Positions 30,306 to 34,714 of a DNA stretch of 64,000 bases are shown here, one piece after another. The notes beneath the pieces are model-generated. The model had not been told where the DNA came from, did no database searches, and saw nothing but the letters and a program-made list of their open reading frames with translations. This DNA comes from an uncultured Pelagibacteraceae bacterium. GTDB lineage: Bacteria; Pseudomonadota; Alphaproteobacteria; Pelagibacterales; Pelagibacteraceae. Positions within the stretch are counted from its first letter, which is position 1. Each line of letters begins with the position of its first letter. The stretch spans positions 1-64,000 of the forward strand of contig CACNAR010000002.1 of the NCBI GenBank assembly GCA_902618485.1, written 5' to 3'. Both the position numbers and the translations under genes were made by a program.

Positions 30306-31406
30306 ATGAAAATTGAACTTTCAGACAATAAAGTTTTTTTTGAAAATCAAGGATCAAAAAAAGAAATACACCCATTCTGGTTGAGAGAAAGAGTGAACGG
30401 TGTAGATTTTGTTGATAAAGGTACCAAACAAAGATTGTTTGATCCAACAACGCTCAATCAAAATATTAAAATAAATAAAGTAAATTTGACTGATAATTTT
30501 TTAGAGATTTCTTTTAATGACGGAGTTGAAACAAAAATATCAATTCAAAGTATCTTTGAAGAATATTCTGGTATTAATGATATAAAATTTATCAAAAAAA
30601 CTAAATGGGACTCTTCTTTAAAAAATCTAAATAATTTTCAGTTCAGTGAAAATATATTTGAAGAAAAAATAATGTATGAAGCTTTAATAAGTTTCTATAA
30701 ATATGGTTTCATTATTTTCAAAAATGTGCCGACAGATAACAATTTTCTAGTAAAATTCGCAAATTCTATAGGTAGTATAAGGAGAACGAATTTTGGTGAA
30801 TTCTTTAATGTAAAATCAAAACCCAATCCTAATGATCTAGCTTATACATCTTTACCTTTAGCACCTCATACTGATAATCCTTATAGAAATCCAGTTCCAT
30901 GTATTCAAATATTGCATTGTATTGAAAATGCAGTTGAAGGTGGATACTCTACTTTGGTAGATGGCTTTACAGTTACAGAGGAATTAAAAGAAAAATATCC
31001 TGAATATTATAAAATTTTAACTGAGGTGAAGGTAAAATATCAATTTATAGATAAGGATGTAATATTAGAGAATTGGGCTGAGATGATTGAATTAGATGAA
31101 AATAAAAATTTTAAACAGGTTAGATTTAGCCCAAGGTTAGATTTTGTTCCATTAATTGATAAAAATAAATTAGATGTTTACTATAAGGCAAGAAATAAAA
31201 TTTCTGAATTGTATAATTCAAGCAAATATAGAATTGAATTTAAACTTCTTCCGGGAGATCTATTAATGATGGATAATTATCGACTTCTTCATGGAAGGAC
31301 ATCCTTTAATGCTAATGAGGGTAATAGATTTCTTCAAGGTTGTTATATAGATTATGATAGTACTGAAGGAAAAATTAAGCATCTAAAAAGAAAATTTAAT
31401 ATATAA
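30306..31406 (+). CDS. Gamma-butyrobetaine/trimethyllysine hydroxylase-like 2-oxoglutarate dioxygenase
   Basis: 366 residues in two parts. The N-terminal domain (about 1-95) has the GBBH-like pattern HPFWLRERV and RLFDPTTL. The TauD-like jelly roll has the iron motif HTDNPYRNP (H-x-D) and the distal histidine in LLHGRTSF. Such enzymes hydroxylate gamma-butyrobetaine to carnitine or trimethyllysine, using 2-oxoglutarate, Fe(II) and oxygen in the cytoplasm. A quaternary amine substrate fits the osmolyte-centred gene content, but no carnitine genes are nearby. The zinc-binding cysteines of animal BBOX1 are not evident. Confidence 0.8.
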   Translation: MKIELSDNKVFFENQGSKKEIHPFWLRERVNGVDFVDKGTKQRLFDPTTLNQNIKINKVNLTDNFLEISFNDGVETKISIQSIFEEYSGINDIKFIKKTKWDSSLKNLNNFQFSENIFEEKIMYEALISFYKYGFIIFKNVPTDNNFLVKFANSIGSIRRTNFGEFFNVKSKPNPNDLAYTSLPLAPHTDNPYRNPVPCIQILHCIENAVEGGYSTLVDGFTVTEELKEKYPEYYKILTEVKVKYQFIDKDVILENWAEMIELDENKNFKQVRFSPRLDFVPLIDKNKLDVYYKARNKISELYNSSKYRIEFKLLPGDLLMMDNYRLLHGRTSFNANEGNRFLQGCYIDYDSTEGKIKHLKRKFNI

Positions 31407-31407
31407 A

Positions 31408-31587
31408 TTATTTATTAAAACAATTATTCACTAATATTGCCATTAATATCCAAATGACAAAAGTTTCACCATGGGTGAAAGAATAATCCGCTCCAGCGAA
31501 TCCAGCAACTATATTGATTGCATAAATAATTATGGTAGAGACTAATAAACTTAAAAATAATTTTACTATTCCATTAATATATTTCAC
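31408..31587 (-). CDS. Unlisted 59-residue membrane protein with GTG start
   Basis: The minus strand encodes 59 codons from GTG at 31585-31587 to TAA at 31408-31410, converging on the dioxygenase gene with one base between stops. The protein has two hydrophobic segments (about residues 7-30 and 43-55) with a polar hairpin GADYSFTHGET between them. Glycine, acidic and histidine residues in the loop, plus a neat fit into the gap, argue for a real gene. No family is recognised. An ATG immediately upstream is followed by TGA, so the GTG would be required. Confidence 0.5.
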   Translation of the reverse strand: MKYINGIVKLFLSLLVSTIIIYAINIVAGFAGADYSFTHGETFVIWILMAILVNNCFNK

Positions 31588-31681
31588 ATTAAAATTTTAA
31601 CTATTCTCAATATTTATGCAAATGAAAATTTTCTATTAATAAGTGAAATTATTTTAGATGCGGGAATATTATTAAATACTT
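31588..31681. other. AT-rich spacer before the structured RNA
   Basis: No coding frame of note. It probably holds the promoter of the 59-residue membrane protein (minus strand) and that of the structured element (plus strand), but I cannot pick out a convincing pair of -35 and -10 boxes. Confidence 0.3.
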
Positions 31682-31940
31682 AGGTTGTATTCAAGAAATA
31701 TATTTTCAGAAAATTTAAATAAATTTATTGATTACAACCTGATCAAAATTTAATCTTTAATTAAGGAGGTAGCTTTAATGAATCAAACACCACCTGATAC
31801 TTAGCTGGGTATTTTCATACTTCATAAAAACGTAAATAAAAAATATAAAGTCCATTCGGACTTAAATGCCAGAACGGCAAATTAGGGGCTGCTCTTTTGG
31901 TTAATTAACTAGAGAGCAAACCCCTAAATTATTTTGTTAA
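31682..31940 (+). ncRNA. Candidate structured RNA with a sequestered Shine-Dalgarno site
   Basis: Five hairpins are visible in order. (1) 31682-31740: 24-base arms matching at 21 positions, with a perfect 8-bp base AGGTTGTA/TACAACCT. (2) 31764-31795: AGGAGGT pairs with ACCACCT at 6 of 7 positions, burying the strong Shine-Dalgarno of an 8-codon ORF. (3) 31848-31863: AAGTCC-ATTC-GGACTT. (4) 31867-31879: TGCC/GGCA. (5) 31882-31927: a 46-base hairpin, TTAGGGG/CCCCTAA outside and GCTCT/AGAGC inside, followed by T-rich sequence. No plus-strand gene lies downstream, so this looks like a stand-alone transcript rather than a leader. I cannot assign it to tmRNA, 6S or a riboswitch class. Hairpin 3 followed by T-rich DNA on the minus strand could instead serve as a terminator for the methyltransferase gene. 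Confidence 0.55.
31778..31804 (+). CDS. Eight-codon ORF (MNQTPPDT) inside the structured RNA
   Basis: ATG follows the near-perfect Shine-Dalgarno AAGGAGGT (31763-31770) by seven bases, and the frame ends at TAG after eight codons including two prolines. Such a strong ribosome site is rare in this window, which is why I list this frame. It could be a leader peptide or a ribosome-binding decoy. The site can pair with ACCACCT inside the ORF, so translation and folding would compete. Confidence 0.35.
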   Translation: MNQTPPDT

Positions 31941-31941
31941 T

Positions 31942-32649
31942 TTATCTATTCAAAACTAGACAAATCAATTTATCTTGAAAAGATATTTGTTTTTTATACT
32001 TTTTCTTTATTTCATTTAAACCACTAGATATTATCTTATGGCTCATACCCAACAACACCGATATATATTTGCTATTTACCATTTCCATATATTTTATCCT
32101 TGAAATTTTAACTTTATAACTAAACCCTCTAACGAGTTTTCCTTTGAATGAATATGAAATTGATTTAATAATTTTCTTGTCTCTTATTAAGGCTTTTTTC
32201 AGCTTTTTTTTCATAATCGAAAATGTTGGAATTTCATTATTAATGGGGTCTAGAGTAAAAATAATAATTTTACCGTTTGGATTTAGCAATGTCTTTGACA
32301 ATTTAAGTATAGTCTTAATATCTTTAATTTTAAAAAGATGAATAGTTTGTTTTAATAAAATTAGATCAAATGTTTTTTTATTCTTTTTTAAAAATTTAAG
32401 TGCATCAATTTTTTTAAAAATTATTCTTTTATCCCTATCTTTGTGATTTTCTATATCTATACCTATAGATTTTCTCTTTAAGCTTAACTTTGATGACAAG
32501 CTTCCTAGTATCTTACCCCTGCCACAACCAATATCTAAAATCTGACTGTTTTTATTTAATTTAACTTGTTTTAATAAAAAATTATTAAAAGATTTAATAT
32601 AAGACGATGATGAAAGCCAAGTTTTGTTGTCCCAATTTTTTAATGACAC
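31942..32649 (-). CDS. Class I SAM-dependent methyltransferase
   Basis: 235 residues with motif I LDIGCGRGKILGSL (about residues 40-53), the acidic SIGIDIEN at the end of strand 2, and LILLKQTIHLFK as motif IV/post-motif. The C-terminal part is lysine-rich and basic. The substrate is unknown. It lies at the 3' end of a leftward unit with DUF4396 and cupredoxin genes and overlaps the former by 10 bases. The RNA-like region follows it directly. Confidence 0.75.
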   Translation of the reverse strand: MSLKNWDNKTWLSSSSYIKSFNNFLLKQVKLNKNSQILDIGCGRGKILGSLSSKLSLKRKSIGIDIENHKDRDKRIIFKKIDALKFLKKNKKTFDLILLKQTIHLFKIKDIKTILKLSKTLLNPNGKIIIFTLDPINNEIPTFSIMKKKLKKALIRDKKIIKSISYSFKGKLVRGFSYKVKISRIKYMEMVNSKYISVLLGMSHKIISSGLNEIKKKYKKQISFQDKLICLVLNR

Positions 32650-33086
32650 GCAATATTAAATTTTTTTAGTCTCCAATAATTATAAGGCCAAGGTGTTAAG
32701 AACCCAACTAAGAGCATAATTGGAACTACCCACCAAGTAAGAATTGCGCCACCTGTTAAAAAGTAATCAGTCAAATTCATCATGATCTCCATACTTATCA
32801 TTGATATAAAACTCATTCCCATTGCTGTTTTTAATGCTTTAGAAAAATCAAAACTTTGTCGCATTAAGATTATTGTCTCTAAAATAATACTTGTAATTAG
32901 TCCGTTGATGATAGCTAAAGTCATTATTCCCATAACTGGGAATGGAATCTTAGTTAGTTGGAAAAATAAAATAGTACCAAAATCACCAATTGCACAACCT
33001 AATAAACACCAACCAGTGTTTTTAGCACTTCTTTTCCATGTAAATTTACACGACCAATTAAAATTGGCGTTGACTGCATTGTCCAT
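32640..33086 (-). CDS. DUF4396 membrane protein
   Basis: 148 residues with four hydrophobic helices. The N-terminus NFNWSCKFTWKRSAKNTGWC and the later MGMSFISMISMEIMMNLTDY, rich in methionine and with conserved polar residues, match DUF4396. Family members often sit beside cupredoxins or copper resistance genes, which fits the next gene upstream (4-base gap); a role in copper handling or in a membrane redox step is an inference. Methionines inside helices 3 and 4 could be metal ligands. Confidence 0.72.
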   Translation of the reverse strand: MDNAVNANFNWSCKFTWKRSAKNTGWCLLGCAIGDFGTILFFQLTKIPFPVMGIMTLAIINGLITSIILETIILMRQSFDFSKALKTAMGMSFISMISMEIMMNLTDYFLTGGAILTWWVVPIMLLVGFLTPWPYNYWRLKKFNIACH

Positions 33087-33090
33087 TGAA

Positions 33091-33594
33091 TTAGTTTATA
33101 TCAACTTTAGCAATCATTCCAACTTGATAATGACCTGGCACGTTGCATGCAATTTCAATATTTACGGCATTATCAAATTTCCAAATAATATCTTCCTTTT
33201 CTTTTGGTGCTAACAAAACACTATTGCTATGTGAATGACCCATGGCTTTATCCATTTTTGCCATTTTTTTCATTTTCTCTTTATCAATTGAGTCAGCTAA
33301 AAGTATTTCATTTTCAACCATTTTTTCCATTTCAGGCTGATGCTTCATGTGCATCATTTTATTTGCTATATTAAATTCGTGGACTAACTCACCCACATTT
33401 TCAACTTCAAACTTTATTGTTTCACCTGCTTTAATTTGAAAAGAACTAGGTTCATAATAATTATCATACATCTTTACTTTTATGATTCGGTTAATATCAC
33501 CTTCTTTTCCTTTCGAACCAATTTTCATATTTTTGTCAGCAAAAGATGGTAAGCAATAAAGTACTAAAATGAATAATGTTATAATCTGTTTCAT
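33091..33594 (-). CDS. Periplasmic cupredoxin
   Basis: 167 residues: a signal peptide (about 1-19, ending SFA) and a plastocyanin-like beta barrel. The type 1 copper ligands are visible as the histidine in GELVHEFNIAN and the CNVPGHYQVGM motif (Cys, His at +5, Met at +10). A methionine/histidine-rich insertion (MMHMKHQPEMEKM and HSHSN) lies between them, so additional copper could be bound. It may carry electrons or chaperone copper in the periplasm. It heads the unit with DUF4396 and the methyltransferase. Confidence 0.87.
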   Translation of the reverse strand: MKQIITLFILVLYCLPSFADKNMKIGSKGKEGDINRIIKVKMYDNYYEPSSFQIKAGETIKFEVENVGELVHEFNIANKMMHMKHQPEMEKMVENEILLADSIDKEKMKKMAKMDKAMGHSHSNSVLLAPKEKEDIIWKFDNAVNIEIACNVPGHYQVGMIAKVDIN

Positions 33595-33663
33595 GGTGAA
33601 TAAATATTAATTTTCACAATTTTAACAATGGGTCAAATTATACATGTATGATAGTGTAAATTA

Positions 33664-34344
33664 ATGATTTTTAGACAATTATTTGACAATAGATCATCAA
33701 CATACACATATCTTATTTCTTCTGGGGAAGGTAGAGAGGCTTTAATTATTGATCCTGTAATAGAAAATGTAAATAAATACGTAAATTTATTAAAAGAACT
33801 TAATTTAAAACTTGTCAAAGTTATTGATACCCATATACATGCAGATCACGTAACTGGTGCCTCAAAATTAAAGGACATTACAAAATGCTCGAGAATAATG
33901 GGCGATCATACTCCGGCTGATACGGTTGAAATCAGAGTTAAAGATGATGAGTATATTAATTTAGATAACATCAAATTAAGAGCTATGTATACACCTGGAC
34001 ATACTTCAGATAGCTATAGTTTTCTGATGGATAACTATCTATTTTCTGGTGACACTTTGTTGATAAATGGGACAGGTAGAACAGATTTTCAAAATGGAAA
34101 TGCTATAGATTCTTATAACTCCATATTTAATAAACTCCTAAAATTACCAGACGAAACTCTTCTTTACCCCGCTCATGACTATAAAGGAGAAAAATTTAGC
34201 ACAATTGGAAAAGAAAGAAAAAATAACCCTAGGTTACAAGTTGATAGCAAAGATCAGTATATTGAAATTATGAATAATTTAGGTTTAAAAAAACCAGATC
34301 AACTTGAGGCAAATGTTTCAAGAAATATTAAATTGGGTGCTTAA
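33664..34344 (+). CDS. MBL-fold hydrolase, persulfide dioxygenase (ETHE1)-like
   Basis: 226 residues of the metallo-beta-lactamase fold with iron/zinc ligands DTHIHADHVTGA (about residues 56-67), the histidine in TPGHTSDSYSF, the aspartate in LFSGDTLLI, and YPAHDYKG near the end. The last motif is characteristic of ETHE1-type persulfide dioxygenases, which oxidise glutathione persulfide to sulfite. This would suit a cell with active sulfur metabolism. A glyoxalase II-type activity is the alternative. It is the only plus-strand gene in this stretch, divergent from the cupredoxin gene. Confidence 0.8.
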   Translation: MIFRQLFDNRSSTYTYLISSGEGREALIIDPVIENVNKYVNLLKELNLKLVKVIDTHIHADHVTGASKLKDITKCSRIMGDHTPADTVEIRVKDDEYINLDNIKLRAMYTPGHTSDSYSFLMDNYLFSGDTLLINGTGRTDFQNGNAIDSYNSIFNKLLKLPDETLLYPAHDYKGEKFSTIGKERKNNPRLQVDSKDQYIEIMNNLGLKKPDQLEANVSRNIKLGA

Positions 34345-34345
34345 A

Positions 34346-34714
34346 TTAAATTGAGGATTTAAGAGCTTTGTAGATTGCTTCTTTTTTAATTTCTCCAATA
34401 CTTCTATAAACCTCTTTATTATTTTTGAAAATTAGAAGAGTTGTTTGATATTGCACATTAAACATGTCAGAAATTTCTCTATTTGTTACATCAAATGCAA
34501 AATATTCAATGTTATCAAAATCATTTTTTGCTTTTTGCAAAACTTTCATTTGACTTGCGCATGAGGGACAATACTTAATCCAAGAGCTCACTACTACAAC
34601 CTTGCCCTCAGATTGTGCTTTGTCAAATAAGTCTTTTTTAAAAGTTGTTTCTTTTTCCATGGCATTAACATTGAATGCTAACAAAAGAAAACAAAGGGTT
34701 AAAATTTTTTTCAT
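34346..34714 (-). CDS. Exported thioredoxin-like protein
   Basis: 122 residues with a short signal peptide (about 1-18, ending VNA) and a thioredoxin fold carrying the redox pair CPSC in SSWIKYCPSCASQM. A cis-proline is not obvious at its usual place (YQTTLLIF instead of xTPT). It should work in the periplasm as a reductant or disulfide exchanger. It ends two bases from the persulfide dioxygenase gene, which it meets head-on, and begins 6 bases after azlD on the same strand. Confidence 0.78.
   Translation of the reverse strand: MKKILTLCFLLLAFNVNAMEKETTFKKDLFDKAQSEGKVVVVSSWIKYCPSCASQMKVLQKAKNDFDNIEYFAFDVTNREISDMFNVQYQTTLLIFKNNKEVYRSIGEIKKEAIYKALKSSI

Follow-up and report, generated by a model that had tools for sequence, protein, structure and literature searches.

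The SAR11 bacteria, known for having few regulators and short intergenic regions, rank with the ocean's most abundant cells. In the stretch of DNA considered here (the window, all 64,000 nucleotides analysed, which is contig C2 of a 1,038,353-base genome in 23 contigs), the interval between a TauD-family gene (30306–31406, plus strand) and a methyltransferase gene (31942–32649, minus strand) holds the stretch 31682–31940, which a first-pass annotation flagged as an RNA of five hairpins with a concealed Shine–Dalgarno (SD) sequence and an eight-codon open reading frame (ORF). What is this element; is it the leader of some gene, the gene of a very short peptide, a shared terminator, or an RNA in its own right? 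The observation at 31682–31940 is genuine, but the borders and the anatomy of the RNA differ from those first described. Our best explanation, to which we give an even chance, is a stand-alone small RNA gene of the Pelagibacteraceae (SAR11) with a micro-ORF that is almost certainly translated and a hairpin body that would act in trans. A conserved RNA with so short an ORF would be a new layer of control or a new tiny peptide in SAR11.

Anatomy of the locus

The features are given below by window position, the three hairpins being called H2, H3 and H4.

31666–31694, minus strand: predicted leftward promoter in the left arm of the repeat, TTGAAT-N17-TAATAT (TANNNT at spacing 17 in 42/42 nonredundant loci)
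31682–31740: inverted repeat carrying both −35 boxes, with arms 31682–31705 and 31717–31740
31728–31756, plus strand: predicted promoter of the RNA, TTGATT-N17-TAATCT (TANNNT at spacing 17 in 32/42 nonredundant loci)
31763–31927, plus strand: predicted small RNA of about 165 nt (SD, micro-ORF, linker and three hairpins), with both ends predicted
31763–31770, plus strand: Shine–Dalgarno sequence AAGGAGGT (GGAGG upstream of an in-frame ATG in 149/149 distinct loci)
31778–31804, plus strand: micro-ORF MNQTPPDT-stop (ATG to TAG), with synonymous and stop-codon changes in relatives
31790–31807, plus strand: most conserved block, CCACCTGATACTTAGCTG (PPDT-stop and the CTG past the stop), found as a pattern in 133/397 genomes of the order
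31848–31863, plus strand: hairpin H2, AAGTCC-ATTC-GGACTT (both-side changes in 2/6 pairs, 29 sequences)
31868–31878, plus strand: hairpin H3, GCC-AGAAC-GGC (inner pair C-G to G-C in 5/37 sequences)
31882–31927, plus strand: H4, the terminal hairpin of 46 nt, whose 3' bulge is conserved (both-side changes in 7/12 counted pairs, 37 sequences)

The locus was found in relatives by BLAST. A covariance model made from 29 sequences (R1), the window copy among its seed, matches the window at 31761–31926 with an E value of 2e-30.

The upstream inverted repeat

Among the hairpins first assigned to the RNA was a pair of 24-bp arms. The arms are there, 24 nt long and 21/24 (88%) complementary, but they lie upstream of the predicted RNA start and read as promoter DNA. 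The repeat is better taken as two promoters placed back to back; from one of them the RNA would start, at the SD (about 31763). We reject the arm pair as part of the RNA, for the outer half of the right arm has been lost in whole lineages while the promoter-like sequences stay (leftward, all 42 loci; rightward, 32 of them). These loci were anchored on the left arm, such that for the leftward promoter the −35 box is built in and only the −10 box is independent evidence; at other spacings, TANNNT appears in 0–8 of the 42 loci on the rightward side (spacings 10 to 23) and in 0–4 on the leftward side. The left-arm −35 box is TTGAAT, with TTGTAT in one of the 42 loci. The rightward −10 box is truly missing at spacing 17 in eight loci, mostly of the MLILS-type group, and two further misses (L009 and L092) are anchor slips. 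The distance between the arms is 38 in 37/42 loci, and some of the deviations likewise look like anchoring slips. No such repeat was seen by eye in the upstream sequence of the genera g7 and g5.

The leftward promoter-like sequence is kept even where the gene on that side reads towards the RNA. Downstream of it, the window holds a previously unlisted 59-aa ORF on the minus strand (31408–31587) that starts from GTG (VKYINGIVKLFLSLLV...NNCFNK) and is likely a small membrane protein; a Pfam scan of this ORF gave no match, and its relatives adjoin the RNA in 59 loci.

A very short, conserved ORF

The ORF MNQTPPDT is present as first described, and its importance turns out to be better supported than had been claimed. 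Collapsing 182 loci gave 149 distinct ones, every one of which has GGAGG followed by an in-frame ATG and 7–10 codons that end in [P/L/A]PDT-stop (a separate scan missed the in-frame ATG in 1/164 loci). Within the four-codon end, the first codon is CCA in 140 loci, CCG in five, TTG in three and GCA in one; the second is CCT in 147 and CCA in two; the third is GAC in 79 and GAT in 70; the fourth is ACT in 142 and ACA in seven; and the stop is TAG in 142 and TAA in seven. This set leaves aside the two decayed loci described below, five g7 loci and two g5 loci. The ORF of g7 is MSPPET, with TGA (five copies) or TAA (one copy) as its stop, and that of g5 is MSPPEI, with TAA (two copies). Across genera, then, the ORF runs to 6–10 codons and ends in [P/L/A]-P-[D/E]-[T/I]-stop. 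The changes at this end are mostly at third positions, D gives way to E, the stop codons interchange, and the ATG shifts while the frame is kept at varying lengths, which is the pattern expected of selection on the peptide end. From the synonymous changes, the exchanges among TAG, TAA and TGA, and the MSPPET and MSPPEI forms of other genera, we conclude that the micro-ORF is almost certainly translated. Judged by sequence, it is an ORF under selection at the amino-acid level, as in small-ORF or dual-function RNAs; it would be among the shortest ORFs under clear selection of this kind, and it bears on the question of how short a conserved gene can be.

How far does the sampling shape this picture? 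The 164 loci from genus g1 were gathered largely by patterns that hold most of PPDT-stop, and conservation within that block is therefore partly built in. A less biased sample consists of 20 regions chosen mostly among the weakest R1 matches in g1; 18 of these keep the ORF (e.g. MKTPPDT, MKSAPDT, MLKLPDT and MNLSPPDT), and two look decayed. In the latter (L192 in genome G165 and L193 in G024), inspection by eye finds the promoter region gone, the ORF out of frame and the hairpin pairing eroded, and the three seem to have been lost together.

The first-pass annotation presented the SD as the best ribosome site of the window; as a sequence, AAGGAGGT is not unique there, occurring at 31763 (plus strand) and 38530 (minus strand) where 1.56 occurrences are expected by chance.

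Is the peptide itself the product, as a signal, an inhibitor or a precursor for modification, with hairpins that only stabilise and end the mRNA? We regard this as possible but unlikely. It would fit a peptide with a C-terminus conserved at the amino-acid level and a free N-terminal half, and equally short ORFs can be translated reiteratively in vitro (PMC6495379). It would not account for a hairpin body that covaries beyond the needs of a terminator, nor does any modification enzyme or exporter recur among the neighbours, which vary by lineage. The CTG past the stop also speaks against it, being conserved outside the coding sequence in g1 (162/164 loci, where it was part of one collecting pattern), though not in the other genera. 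Retention of CCT at the second Pro codon while GAC and GAT interchange freely hints at an additional constraint at the RNA level at that position.

An alternative in which translation rather than the peptide matters is a minigene-like trap for ribosomes or tRNA, in which fast initiation followed by an early Pro-Pro stall would lead to peptidyl-tRNA drop-off or tied-up ribosomes and, under certain conditions, slower growth. Minigenes can be toxic, and the strong SD near the predicted 5' end, the very short ORF and the early PP[DE] (in 145/149 loci, and also in the g7 and g5 copies read) are what such a trap would need; three conserved hairpins are not, and the Pro-Pro pair is replaced in 4/149 loci (three LPDT, one APDT). 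We consider a trap improbable. The LPDT and APDT loci also imply that a Pro-Pro pause is not essential everywhere.

Does the Shine–Dalgarno helix act as a switch?

The SD had been proposed to pair with ACCACCT inside the ORF, forming a switch that senses ribosomes, temperature or a ligand. The pairing is possible, but the minimum-energy fold of the 165-nt RNA pairs the SD with UACUUC behind the ORF instead. Sensing of this kind is conjectural at best, as predicted occlusion of the SD is moderate only and a switch in cis would have no same-strand gene to control. The helix of AGG.GGU with ACC.CCU can form in 97.7% of cells of the 29-sequence alignment, and none of its pairs has changes on both sides; covariation hence speaks neither for nor against it. 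In isolated 5' parts (49 sequences), the mean pairing probability of the SD is 0.75. When halves were swapped between loci, native combinations paired better than swapped ones among 39 distinct pairs (23/5000 shuffles as low, uncorrected for relatedness); with 14 lineage representatives, 462/5000 shuffles were as low. Moreover, CCT CCT would pair with the SD better than CCA CCT (0.99 vs 0.76), yet CCA CCT is used. With the swap figures weakening among lineage representatives and the better-pairing codons not used, we take an SD/ACCACCT switch as possible and not as proven.

Three covarying hairpins

The terminal hairpin of 46 bases and the two small hairpins before it were confirmed. A 301-nt stretch folds at −69.4 kcal/mol (z −5.3; 0/100 shuffles as low) and the 165-nt RNA alone at −45.0 kcal/mol (z −4.3; 0/200 shuffles as low). 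The covariation sought for the first-pass annotation is found in g1 alignments for H2–H4, with shuffle controls that are not tree-aware. In the 29-sequence alignment, 9/27 pairs (36 cells) have changes on both sides, all within H2–H4; in 37 sequences of the 3' part, in which H2 is poorly aligned (72% of cells paired), 10/21 pairs do (47 cells). For both sets, four of the five measures were reached by 0/500 shuffles, and the remaining one, further pair types, by 18/500 (29 sequences) and 25/500 (37 sequences). In these alignments, the three hairpins covary as expected of a structured RNA. In g7, both-side changes occur in 5/37 predicted pairs, and several upper H4 pairs are disrupted in one or two of the five. 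The H3 loop is GAAA in g7 and GAGA or GAAA in g5. In both of these genera, H2 is a nearly invariant 10-bp palindrome, GAATTCATTT..AAATGAATTC, amid varying neighbours (L223–L227, L230, L233 and L234).

Could the element be nothing but the shared 3' end of two convergent genes, a terminator in which the ORF arose by chance? In the window, the terminal hairpin (H4) does abut the stop codon of the convergent minus-strand gene, which it may also end. This account is scarcely credible given an SD, an ATG and a PPDT-stop that are conserved with synonymous changes. A model of the 3' part only (R2) was run on 41 relatives and matched this locus in 12 genomes, in three of which the same hairpin was also echoed on the other strand; elsewhere it gave one weak match (G008, E 0.07), and such near confinement to one locus indicates that the 3' module is not a common terminator. 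Nor is the element likely to be just a 3' UTR of the minus-strand gene, since the plus-strand SD, ATG and peptide end are conserved beside differing minus-strand genes. Inspection by eye found no clear U-run after H4 in the window, which makes the 3' end of the RNA uncertain.

Distribution among genomes

How widespread is the RNA? The pattern CCNCCTGAYACTTAGCTG occurs in 133/397 genomes of the order, once in each, all in one genus of 13, and its reversed control occurs in none. Database records with the pattern amount to at least 119 stretches; among the 80 listed, 79 are titled Pelagibacteraceae and one Pelagibacterales. R1 matches 110/250 genomes of g1, including 26 of the 38 with a completeness of 90% or more and a contamination of 5% or less; under strict filters, and with many of the genomes incomplete, the 140 others sampled, 12 of those 38 among them, gave no match. 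The number of g1 genomes without a match suggests that the RNA is dispensable or has been lost in many lineages, with the proviso that searches of more than 40 genomes used strict filters and their absences are soft.

Beyond g1, R1 matched 23 of 147 family genomes, three of them in a second genus, g7, in which the RNA was matched in 5/6 genomes overall. A model from five g7 copies only (R3) matched 61 of 247 order genomes, in three of ten genera: g1, g7 (four genomes, one of which R1 had missed) and a third genus, g5 (two genomes). Some g1 genomes that carry the RNA, G062 and G012 among them, fall below the R3 threshold. Over 289 genomes of the class, R1 gave three matches, namely the genome of the window, a second g1 genome and, in G061, a weak match that we reject as a homolog, as it sits in apparent coding sequence (perhaps dnaA, by our reading); the true G061 copy was recovered by R3. 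Among the genomes sampled, convincing matches are confined to three genera of one family. The suggestion of an orphan structured RNA of marine bacteria is thereby borne out, given covariation, this distribution and no Rfam match. The RNA is carried by the cultivated strain HTCC1062, which makes it testable by experiment, and presumably by the cultivated strains HTCC7211 and HIMB5 as well.

Neighbouring genes

As first noted, no plus-strand gene directly follows the RNA, the next gene (31942–32649) being on the minus strand. Among the 149 loci, the closest ORF of 90 aa or more past the RNA is convergent in 130 and on the same strand in two, with 17 loci too short to judge; in g7 and g5, an opposite-strand ORF lies downstream in 6/7 inspected loci, four of these ORFs being folD-like by our reading. 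The exception (L230) has a same-strand 68-aa ORF with a signal-like start about 75 bases past the RNA, the sole such case in the seven. A short ORF followed by hairpins is the layout of leader attenuators, and an attenuator or uORF leader of a downstream gene has to be considered on that account; as the downstream ORF is on the minus strand in 130/132 readable loci and in six of the seven from g7 and g5, we hold it to be very improbable. A riboswitch or an RNA thermometer for a downstream gene is unlikely on the same count, the same-strand gene directly downstream that all of these cis-regulators would have being absent from nearly all loci.

Upstream neighbours vary among lineages. Pfam names among the neighbours comprise TauD, methyltransferase, cupredoxin, DUF4396, cytochrome c', DUF411, cytochrome b561, FUR and SMR. 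In the window, a run of redox- or metal-related genes lies at 32640–34714 (DUF4396, cupredoxin, metallo-beta-lactamase fold and thioredoxin), and cytochrome c', cytochrome b561 and DUF411 occur near copies of the RNA in relatives. A copper theme was entertained and set aside, for cupredoxin, DUF4396, cytochrome c', cytochrome b561 and DUF411 are near some copies and not others; copies that lack copper-type neighbours adjoin a FUR-family gene, or a photolyase-like or folD-like gene (the last two names being our reading). In HTCC1062, the gene convergent with the RNA is SAR11_0785 (DUF952; L217), for which a table of an iron-limitation microarray study gives values of 1.52 and 0.051, late (PMC2864753).

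What might the RNA do?

The RNA is best read as stand-alone and ribosome-engaging. That it is a gene of its own is supported by the promoter-like sequence in g1, the almost certainly translated micro-ORF, the three covarying hairpins and the lack of a same-strand gene behind it in nearly all loci. As to its working, we infer pausing, shielding, an output in trans and a sensed signal along the following lines. The transcript would start at, or just before, the strong SD; ribosomes would load at this 5' end and translate the micro-ORF; and they would slow either at termination or, a few codons into the ORF, at Pro-Pro-Asp/Glu, where EF-P eases passage. A ribosome lingering on the 5' end would hold the weak SD/CCACC helix open and protect the RNA from decay, and the hairpin body, as the stable part, would bind a protein or an mRNA and so provide the output in trans. 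In this way the RNA would report the speed at which ribosomes load or clear. We favour this lingering-ribosome model because an EF-P domain is encoded in the genome of the window, PPD and PPE occur among the EF-P-dependent pauses of Escherichia coli (PMC4140641), and the 7-codon mccA ORF undergoes many rounds of translation in vitro without ribosome dissociation (PMC6495379).

A tentative and rather doubtful formulation of our own is an attenuator without an operon, in which a pause at Pro-Pro-Asp/Glu or at the stop would set the survival or shape of the RNA, which would then report translation capacity (EF-P or ribosome supply) to other genes in trans. If true, an operon-free attenuator would serve a lineage poor in transcription factors.

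Earlier records of the region

Has the element been seen before? In Table 1 of Meyer et al. 2009, the intergenic region 762678–763012 of 'Ca. P. ubique' HTCC1062 has 76 BLAST hits and carries no RNA assignment; the screening that followed took regions exceeding 200 hits (PMC2704228). In our copy of this genome (G066), ORFs ending at 762677 and starting at 763013 bound that region exactly, and R1 matches at 762690–762861 (minus strand). The listed region is thus the same place as the RNA, recorded there and not interpreted (PMC2704228). For the SAR11 strain HIMB5, Stav et al. 2019 describe sORF, sRNA and HRC-1/HRC-2 candidates, which number at least three sORFs, one sRNA and two that are unexplained (PMC6429828); these are likewise intergenic, structured or with a short ORF, and confined to SAR11. 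The article text consulted gives neither sequence nor place for them, and the supplements of that study may already list the RNA. In the genome G012, the RNA lies at 794989–795148. No such RNA is named in the parts consulted of an mdRNA-Seq study that mapped to HTCC7211 (PMC5069720) or, for SAR11, of PMC8632094 and PMC11109978.

Searches in a library of open-licence papers yielded no description of the RNA itself or of RNAs of its kind. The Rfam check proposed at the outset returned no family at gathering score for the RNA: a covariance search of Rfam 15 found only a tRNA elsewhere in the window and nothing in seven relatives, and 12 weak matches all fell below gathering score. A tmRNA, a tRNA or a known Rfam RNA was rejected, with no ARAGORN or Rfam match at the locus, as was a phage origin, one exact pattern having 0 matches in viral_contigs. 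By "new" we therefore mean only absent from Rfam 15 and not found in the open-licence library searched.

Comparison with known systems

Besides these earlier records, three known systems come close. The rnTrpL/peTrpL RNA of Sinorhizobium is a dual-function, trans-acting leader RNA that carries a short ORF within a structured small RNA and derives from an operon leader. The short ORF in a structured small RNA is shared, whereas an operon downstream of the RNA described here is lacking at nearly all loci. The precursor of microcin C ends in Asn. At our locus, the C-terminal residue is Thr in 149/149 loci (the search string required Thr in most) and Thr or Ile in the other genera, and no mccB-like adenylating gene is among the 17 neighbour proteins scanned. 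The microcin C precursor gene, mccA, is similar in having 7 codons, an SD and a terminator hairpin after the ORF (PMC6495379), but it belongs to a biosynthesis operon, of which the neighbours of the RNA show no sign. Finally, the downstream-peptide motif and Yfr6 are, like our RNA, marine structured RNAs beside a short ORF; in these, the structure lies 5' of an ORF of typically 17–100 aa (PMC2864571), whereas here it is an ORF of 6–10 codons that lies 5' of the structure.
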